Below the pieces are notes generated by a model. The model had not been told where the DNA came from. It was given only the letters and a program-made list of their open reading frames with translations, and did not search any database. Below are positions 12,497 to 17,044 of a stretch of 64,000 nucleotides of DNA, in pieces. Each line of letters begins with the position of its first letter. Position 1 is the stretch's first letter. Source of the DNA: Gilliamella sp. wkB171 (GTDB lineage Bacteria; Pseudomonadota; Gammaproteobacteria; Enterobacterales; Orbaceae); NCBI RefSeq assembly GCF_001693755.1, contig NZ_LYST01000039.1, positions 124,001-188,000 of the forward strand. The letters run 5' to 3'. The translations under genes were made by a program, and so were the position numbers.

Positions 12497-13252
12497 TTAT
12501 TGTTTGCCTTTTTCGACATAACTCATATCACCTAAACTTTCAACAATAAATTTGCCATCATCGGTATAACGAATTTTAGTTACACTTGCATTACCTAAAC
12601 CTGCAGTTATCGGTTTATCTAGCATCTCTTCAACCATTGCCATAATTGCCAAACCATGCGATACGACTAAAACGTTACCGCCCCCTTGTGCTTTGGCTGA
12701 TTCTGCAATCATTTTTAATGATTCTTGCATGCGAGTTTTTACTTTATTATAGTCTTCGGCTTCACCTGATTTTTCAACTGCAGCAATCGCGTCGATCATT
12801 TTTTTAAGTGTTACTTTACCTTTTGCTAAATCGTCCATAAGATCTTTATCAGATGCGTAACCTAAATGTTTTGCTGCCGGATTCCACATATTAGGGTCAA
12901 GATCACCTTCAAATTCGCCAAAGCAATTTTCTCGTAATTTTTCCATTTCATTTATTTGTACTGGCACACCTTTTGTTTCGAGAATGATACGTGCGGTTTG
13001 CCTTGCTCGTCCTGAATCACTAGAATAGACCGAAATAAAATCAACATCTTTTAACCCTCGACCAAGTTGCTGAGCAACTTCAATACCGGGTTTGGTTAAT
13101 GGGGTATCAGACCACCCCTGAACACGATGTACATTATTGAACATGGTTTTACCATGTCGAGTAACATAAAGATAGACATCTTGAGCAAAAGCATTTGTTA
13201 TAGTAAAGATAAATACCAATAACAAACTTGAAGATTTTATTAATTTTTTCAT
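12497..13252 (-). CDS. Exported histidine phosphatase (phosphoglycerate-mutase-like fold)
   Basis: This 251-residue protein has a Sec signal peptide (MKKLIKSSSLLLVFIFTITNAFA) followed directly by the catalytic RHG motif (YVTRHGKTMFNN), so it is a periplasmic or secreted phosphatase. The second catalytic His is in LVVSHGLAIMAM, and YSSDSGRARQTARI is the expected phosphate-pocket helix. I chose the ATG at 13252 after GAGGT, because a longer frame overlaps the porin gene. It is the last gene of a minus-strand run with the porin and a second, lipoprotein histidine phosphatase. The substrate is unknown. Confidence 0.9.
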   Translation of the reverse strand: MKKLIKSSSLLLVFIFTITNAFAQDVYLYVTRHGKTMFNNVHRVQGWSDTPLTKPGIEVAQQLGRGLKDVDFISVYSSDSGRARQTARIILETKGVPVQINEMEKLRENCFGEFEGDLDPNMWNPAAKHLGYASDKDLMDDLAKGKVTLKKMIDAIAAVEKSGEAEDYNKVKTRMQESLKMIAESAKAQGGGNVLVVSHGLAIMAMVEEMLDKPITAGLGNASVTKIRYTDDGKFIVESLGDMSYVEKGKQ

Positions 13253-13277
13253 AAAAAGTACCTCATCTTGTTCTGAT

Positions 13278-14612
13278 TCATAATAAGTTAAAACGGTATT
13301 CTGCAATAAATTCAGCACCTAAGAACTGTGCAGTTTGAGATTTACCATTTCGTAAAATGGGTGTGCGATTTTTATGTTTATAAGACCATCCGGGCCCAAC
13401 CATTGCCCAAAGGGTTAACCCTTTTAAACTATTATTGGTAGGGATCCATTTGGTAAACAGATTAAATTCGCTTGAACGTACGGTTGTGTGCCTGAATTTA
13501 AACTCCCCATAATTTGCAGTTAAACCAAGCGTTAAATCGGGATATAGCTTATAATCAATGATTGTTGATAATGCTCGTTCGCCATGTCGTAAATAATCTT
13601 CGCCTGCTTGCGTCATAGACATAAATGTACCGCGTGAGTGGCTAGACATATGGCGATGATAATAGCCTAACTGTCCTTGACCTTTTTTAGCATCAGTATA
13701 GGCAATGCCAATTTTAGCTCCCCACTTATCATCTTGCCATTTGACATCAGCGGCATAGTGATTGGCATGTTTATCAAAATAACGTTTGCTCAGTGCCATT
13801 TTTTTATAATTATCTAGCGATTTGGTAAAATATAGTTGGGTGCCAATTGTTAACTTATCGATTGGTTTAATGCTACCTAAAAAGATTTGACGGCGTAAAT
13901 AGTCTTTGCTTTCACCAATGGCATATTCAACGCTGTAAAATTTATTTTTTAGTGAAATATCGCCTGTGGCAATATAATCAATGGTGTGTTTGCCATCACG
14001 ACTTTTAAACTGTTTTTTATCGGGAGAGTCGCGAGAAATTGAATGCGTTATATAAGCCCCTTTTAATGCCACTTCACCGTAATTTAATGTTGCGCTATAG
14101 CCTTGATAAGTTGTTGGCGATAGGCGAGTAGTATTAGAAATAACCCCAAAGTTTTTCATTGTATGCCAGCCGATATTACCATTAAGATTAACATCAGCTA
14201 CTTTCGCTTTTAATTTGACATAACGTTGGCCTATTTTAGTGTAGCCACCGGCATTGCTACTTTTGGCTTTATTGCCTTTATTGTAAAGTACGCCTCGACT
14301 TGCAAAGTGATCACTGGCAGCTAAACGAAATGCTCGATAAAAATCAGCATTTAAACTAATAAAATCAGCCAAATAACCGGATTGATAACTTACTGCAACG
14401 CCATGCCCCCATGCATTGTGAACTGTTTTTGGATTTTCGGCTTCTTCTTTTAAATACTTCCAATAGTTTTTAGTTGATAGCACGATTTTGGTATCTTTAA
14501 AAAATTCATTATCAGCTATTGATTTAGGTTCATATTTTGATGTCGATTCATTAGCTACTACAAGACTACTCGTCAAGCTAAAAAGTATAACAGTGAGGTA
14601 TTTTAATTTCAT
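13278..14612 (-). CDS. OprD-family outer-membrane porin
   Basis: The 444-residue precursor begins with a signal peptide (MKLKYLTVILFSLTSSLVVA) and continues FFKDTKIVLSTKNYWKYL, AWGHGVAVSYQSGYLADFIS and LNADFYRAFRLAASDH, the typical opening of OprD/ChiP-type substrate-specific porins. The remainder is alternating beta strands (for example VKLKAKVADVNLNGNIGW). It ends EFIAEYRFNLL, two residues beyond the usual terminal aromatic. A strong AGGAATTTAGGA leader precedes the ATG. It lies between two secreted histidine phosphatases and downstream of the bgl genes, which points to uptake of a small carbohydrate or phosphorylated compound. The substrate is inferred only. Confidence 0.82.
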   Translation of the reverse strand: MKLKYLTVILFSLTSSLVVANESTSKYEPKSIADNEFFKDTKIVLSTKNYWKYLKEEAENPKTVHNAWGHGVAVSYQSGYLADFISLNADFYRAFRLAASDHFASRGVLYNKGNKAKSSNAGGYTKIGQRYVKLKAKVADVNLNGNIGWHTMKNFGVISNTTRLSPTTYQGYSATLNYGEVALKGAYITHSISRDSPDKKQFKSRDGKHTIDYIATGDISLKNKFYSVEYAIGESKDYLRRQIFLGSIKPIDKLTIGTQLYFTKSLDNYKKMALSKRYFDKHANHYAADVKWQDDKWGAKIGIAYTDAKKGQGQLGYYHRHMSSHSRGTFMSMTQAGEDYLRHGERALSTIIDYKLYPDLTLGLTANYGEFKFRHTTVRSSEFNLFTKWIPTNNSLKGLTLWAMVGPGWSYKHKNRTPILRNGKSQTAQFLGAEFIAEYRFNLL

Positions 14613-14743
14613 TCCTAAATTCCTAAAGTGTTTATATTCAAAATTTAAAATAATTAATATTTATAAGTTTTTATTTTTTACTAAACATTTAGGTTTTGCC
14701 TGCCATGGCAGTAACAATCCAATCTGCTCAATTTTTTGTCGGT

Positions 14744-15544: not shown

Positions 15545-15618
15545 ATTCTAGTTCTAACTTTCTAGTAAAGTAGCTAACGATTCTGCCTTAACACAATAAT
15601 TAACTACTTTTTAACTCG

Positions 15619-15643
15619 CGATTAGTCAATGTTAGACTAATCG
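15619..15643. terminator. Hairpin between bglA and the lipoprotein phosphatase gene
   Basis: CGATTAGTC (15619-15627), 7-base loop, GACTAATCG (15635-15643). The stem is perfect over 9 bp. The T-tract (TTTTATA) follows on the plus strand, while the genes here run minus, so termination of bgl transcription is uncertain and read-through into the phosphatase-porin genes is possible. Confidence 0.4.
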
Positions 15644-15652
15644 TTTTATAGT

Positions 15653-17044
15653 TTATTTTAATGTTTCACCATTTGAGGCGATGATAGATTGATACCAATA
15701 AAAACTTTTCTTTTTGTAACGCGTTAAGCTACCGGAACCATCTTGATTAAGATCGACATAAATAAAACCATAACGTTTGGTCACTTCTGCTTTTGAGGCA
15801 CTGATAAGATCAATTGGTCCCCAACTTGTGTAACCCATGACTTGCACACCATCATTGATTGCTTCTCGAATTTGCACAAGGTGATCATTCATATAATTAA
15901 TTCGATAGTCGTCGTTGACAGTGCCGTTATCCTCAAGTTTATCTTTAGCGCCTAAGCCATTTTCGACAATAAATAGCGGTTTTTGATAACGTTCATAAAG
16001 CATATTAAGTAAATAACGAATACCAATAGGATCGATTTGCCATCCCCATTCAGAGGCTTTAAGATAAGGATTTGGCACCATATCTAGAATGTTACCTTTC
16101 GTTTTTTGTGAGTCATCAGCTGTCGCGCAGCAACTCATGTAATAACTAAATGAAACAAAATCGATCGTTTCTTTAAGATCTTCATGATCTTGCTCTGTTA
16201 TTGTCAGTTTAATATTGTTCTCTTTAAAAAATCGTTGCATATATGTTGGATAGTATCCACGCACTTGTACATCACCAAAAAATAACCAACCATGATTTTC
16301 TTGATGAGTAGCCCATACATCTTCTGGTTTTGGTGTAAGTGGGTAGGCAACAGCACCCAATAACATATTACCGATTTTTGCATCAGGAATGATGTTATGG
16401 CATAGTTTTACTGCTCGGCTACTCGCGACAAGTTGATGGTGAATCGCTTGGTAAATTTGTGCTTTGCTGCTATTGCGAGCAAGCCCAACACCGGTAAACG
16501 GTTCGTGTAATGACATATTGATTTCATTAAAGGTTAACCAAAGTTTTACTTTATTTTTATAGCGTTCAAAAACTGTTTTAGCATAAAGGGTAAAAAAGTC
16601 GATCACTTTACGGTTTGCCCAGCCACCATATTGTGTAACTAAGTGGTAAGGCATTTCGTAATGAGATAAAGTGACTAATGGTTTAATATTGTGTTTTATC
16701 ATTTCATCAAATAGCTTATCGTAAAAAGCTAGCCCTGCCTCATTAGGCTGAGTTTCATCGCCATTTGGAAAGATCCTAGTCCATGCAATAGATGTGCGTA
16801 AACAGGTAAAGCCCATTTGTGCAAATAGTGCAACATCTTCCGGATAGCGGTGATAAAAATCGATTGCTCGATCTTTAATACTAGTAATGTTATGTTCATT
16901 ACGATCAACAATATCACCAAATAGTCCATTAGGTGTACAGTCCGAGGTCGATAGCCCTTTGCCATCTTCACGAAATGCCCCTTCTACTTGATTGGCGGCA
17001 ATCGCACCGCCCCATAAAAAATCTTCAGGAAATTTTGTTGACAT
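15653..17044 (-). CDS. bglA: 6-phospho-beta-glucosidase, GH1
   Basis: This cytoplasmic enzyme hydrolyses the phosphorylated beta-glucosides delivered by the PTS. The 463 residues show the GH1 acid/base Glu in LTFNEIN (E174) and the nucleophile in [10 protein letters not shown] (E361). The N-terminal [19 protein letters not shown] signature is intact, and the length is normal. GH1 6-phospho enzymes also have the Ser/Lys/Tyr phosphate pocket near the C-terminus, which fits the [15 protein letters not shown] segment here. It starts 3 bases after bglF with an AAGGAG site and is certainly co-transcribed with it. The symbol bglA versus bglB/ascB is a naming choice. Confidence 0.93.

Follow-up and report, generated by a model that had tools for sequence, protein, structure and literature searches.

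The bgl operon of Escherichia coli K-12 comprises bglG, bglF and bglB together with the LamB-type porin BglH. Antiterminators of the BglG type bind a ribonucleic antiterminator (RAT), the 3′ part of which overlaps a terminator. Phosphatase-like genes have also been recorded beside sugar uptake genes in Bacillota: in Bacillus cereus, a phosphotransferase system (PTS) transporter, a 6-phospho-beta-glucosidase and a "phosphoglycerate mutase" are listed as a putative cellobiose cassette, the role of the last being left unexplained (PMC4896439), and in Streptococcus suis ST123 an operon joins a cellobiose/beta-glycoside PTS, a glycoside hydrolase and a histidine phosphatase, to which the accessible text assigns no role (PMC13262394). 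Here we analyze a bgl locus of Gilliamella sp. wkB171 (Orbaceae) contained in a stretch of 64,000 nucleotides (nt), hereafter the window (contig NZ_LYST01000039.1, positions 124,001 to 188,000), in which six genes follow the order bglG-bglF-bglA-P1-porin-P2 on the minus strand, P1 and P2 being exported proteins of the histidine phosphatase family and the porin belonging to the OprD family. The interpretation we put forward, to which we grant slightly less than an even chance, is that a beta-glucoside catabolic unit has gained a cell-envelope module governed by its own regulator, with an exported phosphatase that would free beta-glucosides from phosphate esters for BglF. The linkage of these genes, their shared RNA control and their catalytic residues are established by sequence comparison.

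The locus shares with the E. coli K-12 operon a PRD antiterminator, an IIABC transporter, a GH1 enzyme, a RAT-terminator switch and a sugar porin; it differs in having an OprD-type rather than a LamB-type porin, an exported phosphatase, a serine-variant P1 and a second RAT before the porin. The features expected of a bgl operon controlled by a BglG/LicT regulator are all present. The antiterminator gene bglG (19126..19968) encodes CAT-RBD and PRD domains (PF03123, PF00874) and scores 379.6 bits with the LicT model NF046042 (cut-off 300). The leader of bglF carries both a RAT of the long-loop form (18995..19039) and an intrinsic terminator (18964..19000) that overlaps it, the two folds being mutually exclusive. 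The products of bglF (17048..18937) and bglA (15653..17044), which lie 3 nt apart, are a beta-glucoside PTS IIABC protein (TIGR01995, 712.9 bits, cut-off 614.7) and a GH1 6-phospho-beta-glucosidase (NF007356, 640.8 bits, cut-off 623). P1 (14744..15544) follows after a gap of 108 nt, which contains a hairpin (15618..15644; z −4.2 for 15600-15660) with no U tract on the coding strand. The 131-nt gap before the porin gene (13278..14612) holds the second RAT (14692..14720), which matches the consensus perfectly in the RAT scan and has no terminator in the overlap test. P2 occupies 12497..13252: its listed open reading frame (ORF) begins within the porin gene, with a GTG at 13318, and the true start is likely the ATG at 13252, from which the product has a plain signal peptide and the gap after the porin is 25 nt. 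Profile matches bear out the first-pass annotation of this DNA, which had described six co-directional genes encoding BglG, BglF, BglA, a lipoprotein phosphatase, an OprD porin and an exported phosphatase; the interval it gave, 12497-17044, covers bglA to P2 and leaves bglG and bglF outside.

Conservation of this arrangement was assessed in 40 loci fetched around P1 or P2 matches, so that the counts are conditional on the presence of one of these genes. The full bglG-bglF-bglA-P1-porin-P2 order was recovered in 19 of the 40, one of which (L098) has a shortened P1, and a further 12 keep the same order minus P1 only; one locus lacks the porin and another both P1 and the porin. The remaining seven comprise two porin-P2 pairs, one P1-porin pair (Serratia), one bglA-porin-P2 set at a contig end, one P1 alone, one P2 alone and one P2-like gene with a GH1 gene nearby. 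The order is kept across several genera of the family although the flanking genes change, which argues that the arrangement is more than chance, and the recurrence that the first-pass annotation had proposed to look for is thereby found. P1 matches occur at E 1e-10 in 38 of 60 related genomes, a figure that includes distant housekeeping relatives, and at 1e-28 in 36 of 394 genomes of the order. A wide spread in the class was rejected, since no P2 match at E 1e-25 appeared among 368 other genomes sampled from it, and the distribution is therefore patchy.

RNA switches also tie the module to bgl. Across the related loci and the window we located 106 RATs with at most three mismatches, of which 102 precede named genes, two are those of the window and two are unassigned. 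The named genes are bglF (36), P1 (27), the porin (21), surE (13), bglG (4) and P2 (1), and a terminator overlaps the RAT in 36/36, 25/27, 20/21, 13/13, 4/4 and 0/1 cases, respectively, as against 63 of 1909 control AAAACC sites. The strict pattern gave no RAT in mononucleotide-shuffled sequence of the same size (1.22 Mb) and occurred in one of 3000 shuffled 330-nt windows. Looser patterns are noisy (4 matches in ten shuffled windows; 215 of 3000 shuffled 330-nt windows), and relaxed matches were not counted as evidence. The position of the switch varies: in enterics it lies before P1 (26 of the 27 strict P1 sites) and before SurE, and in the window's family it lies before the porin, the only strict P1 RAT among the fetched family loci being that of Serratia L090. 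Of the porins of the fetched loci, 35 in all, a strict RAT precedes 21 and a relaxed match five; the nine with neither include that of L090, where the RAT stands before P1.

Scanning 17 whole genomes returned 38 exact RATs, with at least one in 16 of them, and a reversed-pattern control in the same genomes returned zero sites. The nearest downstream genes are P1 (12), surE (7), the window porin (1), bglF or bglG (13, one of them inferred from position), a LamB-type porin (2) and others (3). Because 16 of the 17 genomes were picked for holding the P1-porin pair, the share of 20 in 38 is conditional, and the informative part of the scan is that few other places carry the exact motif. Of the three others, two point in opposite directions, one towards the gene of an alkylsulfatase and one towards that of an OprB carbohydrate porin, and the third precedes a glucosamine-isomerase-family gene; the divergent pair (L174, G779:C37:93000-105500) thus serves a sulfatase and a porin in a similar RNA-switched layout. 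A BglG homologue is present in all 16 enteric genomes picked for the P1-porin pair, and the placement of the RATs puts the module in the beta-glucoside regulon even where no bgl genes lie nearby, as in loci of Klebsiella, Serratia, Raoultella and Kluyvera. Shared BglG-type regulation of the module is, on these comparisons, well supported, and it gives substance to the tie with bgl that the first-pass annotation had left to be checked. That the genes could be chance neighbours with no functional link to bgl is a reading to which we give hardly any credence: P2-like genes do occur elsewhere without bgl, and against it stand the order conserved over several genera, the RAT switches with their genome-wide placement and the parallel linkage in Bacillota described below.

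The two phosphatase-like proteins turn out to be unequal. Branch-1 histidine phosphatases are characterized by a catalytic site composed of an Arg-His pair, a second Arg, a Glu and a second His, and losing the second His cripples turnover. Both P1 and P2 match PF00300 (His_Phos_1; 113.7 and 129.4 bits, cut-off 21.7). The initial description of P1 and P2 as paralogs with different export routes stands, as they are 41% identical and P1 carries a lipobox (ITSC, Cys24, read from sequence) where P2 has its plain signal peptide. It took both for phosphatases, however, and only P2 has a complete site. All five residues (R-H-R-E-H) are present in the 39 of 39 sequences assigned to P2, as is expected of an active enzyme, and in 48 of 48 P1 sequences the second His is replaced by Ser with the other four (both Arg, the nucleophilic His and the Glu) intact. 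The notion of two equal phosphatases was accordingly rejected: P1 is a conserved His-to-Ser variant and hence not simply a second phosphatase. Neither this substitution nor the RAT at 14692-14720 had been noticed in the first-pass annotation. In the phylogenetic tree the P1 sequences form one clade with support of 1.0, and the neighbouring clade holds 38 of the 39 P2 sequences; L111, a P2 by best match, falls outside the P2 clade. The tree was computed without L090, which is the same Serratia contig as L034 and is still counted among the RAT sites. A copy from Enterococcus gilvus (L063), also in a bgl operon, carries Ser on a separate branch.

The predicted model of P1 (mean predicted local distance difference test score 84.8), like the porin model discussed below, was built from an alignment of relatives (21 of 25 for P1, 19 of 22 for the porin), and it adopts a phosphatase fold whose best structure match is 3r7a. 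This Bacillus anthracis protein, named only as a putative phosphoglycerate mutase, is the closest solved relative of both P1 and P2, and it bears the second His, unlike P1. Assignment of either protein as a phosphoglycerate mutase or cobalamin phosphatase was rejected, given that GpmB, CobC, GpmA, SixA and similar NCBIfam models all score below cut-off. Lipoprotein anchoring of P1 is not conserved: a loose lipobox fits 13 of 20 P1 proteins encoded in the loci fetched from the family and 13 of 26 enteric ones, the latter only in atypical forms such as AATC. Judging from these sequences, the most likely role of P1 is to bind or present the ester, or else to act on it slowly or in an altered way. 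A more radical possibility is that P1, and perhaps P2, are no longer phosphatases at all and act as ligand-binding or assembly partners of the porin or the PTS. The loss of the second His in all 48 P1 sequences speaks for it, as does the fact that P1 and the porin are neighbours in 27 of 28 enteric-type loci, but the intact P2 site, the invariance of the other P1 catalytic residues and the occurrence of Bacillota relatives where no porin is possible make it improbable.

The enteric-type loci, obtained by a porin search of genome contigs and attributed by record titles to Serratia, Klebsiella, Raoultella, Kluyvera and their kin, have P1 immediately before the porin gene in 27 of 28 cases; in three of the 28 the genes are damaged or obscured, both being fragments in L058, the porin broken in L056 and overlapped by an antisense ORF in L059. 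In Serratia symbiotica (L058 and L061) the pair is decaying into fragments, the P1 RAT of L058 having no terminator. Genes for BglF and BglA adjoin the pair in seven of the 28, and in Enterobacter mori the arrangement is PTS-ascB-carbohydrate porin-Ser-type P1. A link to E. coli was rejected: a distant blastn search of 20,395 E. coli records gave no match to the Klebsiella P1-porin stretch (L040:3100-5238). In 19 of the 28 loci a divergent gene of about 293 codons adjoins P1, with signal peptides readable from the sequence; considered as a regulator, this gene proved instead to be a SurE-type phosphatase, the L038 copy reaching 139 bits in TIGR00087 (cut-off 135.1) and the other 18 being called by their 72-97% similarity to it. 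Exported SurE is not confined to this setting. A genome of the same genus as the window's that lacks P1 and P2 has bglF-bglA followed by an exported SurE, and in another genome of the order (L180, G039:C2:4000-21000) the gene for an exported SurE-type phosphatase comes after a set made up of treR, a PTS gene and treC. The presence of two unrelated exported phosphatases behind PTS glycoside operons argues that removing phosphate outside the inner membrane is important for such uptake, and beta-glucosides may not be the sole case of this linkage.

These same observations lend some support to general phosphate or nucleotide scavenging, in which broad exported phosphatases would be deployed and the beta-glucoside signal would merely report plant or gut material: SurE proteins form a family of nucleotidases (TIGR00087 above cut-off), the phosphatases belong to two unrelated folds, and one copy is linked to trehalose genes. 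Such scavenging would leave unexplained the dedicated porin, the conserved Ser-variant P1 and the finding that 35 of the 38 genome-wide RATs lie at the module, at bgl or at a LamB-type porin, and we regard it as distinctly unlikely.

Relatives outside Pseudomonadota yield a parallel case. We examined 14 distinct sequences with flanks of 5-6 kb from a small plasmid collection, covering part of one set of 52 plasmid records, and judged export from their N-termini. Five of the eight exported relatives lie directly downstream of the GH1 gene of a PTS operon, in Enterococcus faecalis, E. gilvus (two), E. raffinosus and Niallia (with lactose/cellobiose-type IIA and IIB and an IIC); of the other three, that of Priestia is near a BglG-like gene and those of Listeria and Rhodococcus are not beside such genes. 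Among the six cytoplasmic relatives only one (Priestia S188) has a PTS-GH1 context, and four more cytoplasmic copies had no bgl gene within flanks of about 1.5 kb. The E. faecalis and E. gilvus operons (NZ_CP143580.1, NZ_CP030933.1) encode a LicT/PRD regulator, IIABC, GH1 and an exported histidine phosphatase in the same order as the window; being Gram-positive, they have no porin, and the catalytic site is complete in E. faecalis and contains Ser in E. gilvus L063. The B. cereus cassette (PMC4896439) and the S. suis operon (PMC13262394) show the same three-part association of genes without a porin. The association of PTS, glycosidase and phosphatase in Bacillota is thus already in print, which makes that part slightly less new. 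The first-pass annotation knew of no described system with the composition of the window, and searches of an open-access library for the combination showed no description of the bgl-P1-porin-P2 module among the papers listed.

That phosphatases follow PTS and phospho-glycosidase genes in several operons unrelated to one another, among them a trehalose PTS with treC, fits 6-phospho-glycosides as a common substrate. This raises the option of re-capture, whereby 6-phospho-glycosides produced by the cell's own or a neighbouring PTS would leak, or be released by lysis, and the exported phosphatase would restore PTS substrates. No exporter was noticed beside the genes, though no search was aimed at exporters, and RAT control points to induction by beta-glucosides; we consider re-capture unlikely.

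The porin bears on what may enter. It belongs to the OprD family by profile (PF03573, 47.3 bits, cut-off 25) and by fold, its nearest structures being those of the chitoporin ChiP (7vu2, 7vtz; Foldseek E 1.6e-21, 16% identity). ChiP is likewise an OprD-family sugar porin, but the window porin scores 35.9 bits in the ChiP equivalog model, against a cut-off of 750, and so falls short of assignment to ChiP. Its computed isoelectric point (pI) is 9.7, with a median of 9.35 for the porins of the fetched loci (n=34, range 5.5 to 9.96) and 8.98 for enteric porins (n=24). A basic pI and a chitoporin-like fold fit an anionic sugar as cargo, a hint to which pI adds weak evidence.

Returning to the extended catabolic unit proposed at the outset, the following sequence of events can be envisaged, in which the substrate, the direction of flow, the role of P1 and the chemistry are what we infer. 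BglG-type RAT/terminator switches lie before bglF and, in relatives, before the porin, P1 and exported SurE, so that PTS flux of beta-glucosides should turn on the whole set. The basic OprD-type porin would admit phosphate esters of beta-glucosides, which P1 might bind or present, and a complete exported phosphatase (P2 in the window, SurE in many enterics, a lipoprotein relative in Bacillota) would remove the phosphate. BglF would then import the freed glucoside and phosphorylate it at C6, and BglA would split the product into glucose-6-phosphate and the aglycone. Since BglF imports neutral glucosides, an external phosphatase would help most simply if the sugar arrives phosphorylated, making a phosphorylated compound the best inference for the substrate, as had been suggested when the gene set was first described. 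That earlier interpretation is, as a whole, partly supported: the triplet of P1, porin and P2 keeps its common context with bgl, and in relatives RNA switches of the BglG type connect the two, with some P2-type relatives standing apart; exported phosphatases are linked to beta-glucoside PTS genes in Bacillota as well.

Several observations weigh against this proposal. P1 itself has no RAT in 19 of 22 cases in the window's family, nine of the 35 porins of the fetched loci show none, and the window porin has a RAT without a terminator, as opposed to 20 of 21 related porins that have both; with the terminator gone, the porin and P2 of this genome are probably read without BglG, which makes their constitutive or bgl-read-through expression likely. 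Relatives exist that have lost P1, the porin or the porin RAT, the porin-P2 pair stands alone in L110 and L112, and one porin has a pI of 5.5. Exported P2-like genes are found away from bgl in Enterobacillus, Kluyvera and Pantoea genomes (L181, L182, L183), and exported SurE also stands behind the trehalose PTS operon of one genome (L180), suggesting that the phosphatases may be broader in function. Lastly, BglF takes unphosphorylated sugars, so that the genome itself gives no sign of an ester being encountered.

Phosphorylated glucosides do occur in insects and nematodes: linamarin phosphorylated at C3 is found in whitefly honeydew (PMC8225905), and Caenorhabditis elegans yields a genistein phosphoglucoside as its dominant genistein product (PMC3474776) and makes phosphorylated modular glucosides (PMC7641594). 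A more specific version of the proposal, possible but doubtful, is a pathway for phosphorylated beta-glucosides, such as insect- or nematode-type conjugates of plant glucosides and of other aglycones, with entry through the porin, holding by P1, external dephosphorylation, uptake by the bgl PTS and BglG RNA control. On this view, PTS operons of the kind would have acquired exported phosphatases repeatedly, of the His_Phos type in two phyla and of the SurE type in enterics and, on one occasion, in the window's genus.

Beyond the cluster, the window contains a gene for a DeoR-type regulator (7199-7960) convergent with a HAD-type sugar-phosphatase-like gene (6358-7161); three of the fetched loci (L078, L080, L114) have the regulator close to their bgl cluster, and two have the HAD gene there. 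At the start of an ORF of 535 codons (9514-11121, plus strand) there is a perfect heptanucleotide repeat, ATCGGGC, in about ten copies (9533-9604); as a 7-nt unit can shift the frame, the product may be phase-variable. A PreQ1 riboswitch (2108-2153, minus strand, 47.8 bits) is the sole Rfam match of the window at gathering score.

Taken at the strengths given above, these results would widen the BglG regulon, classically one of sugar uptake, so that it takes in envelope phosphatases and a dedicated porin, and they bring to light a conserved, regulated phosphatase-like family with one exchanged catalytic residue. They also predict a natural substrate class, phosphorylated glycosides, for a well-known PTS. 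If this is true, gut bacteria would be reversing the host's phosphate conjugation of plant compounds, tying animal detoxification to the microbiota.

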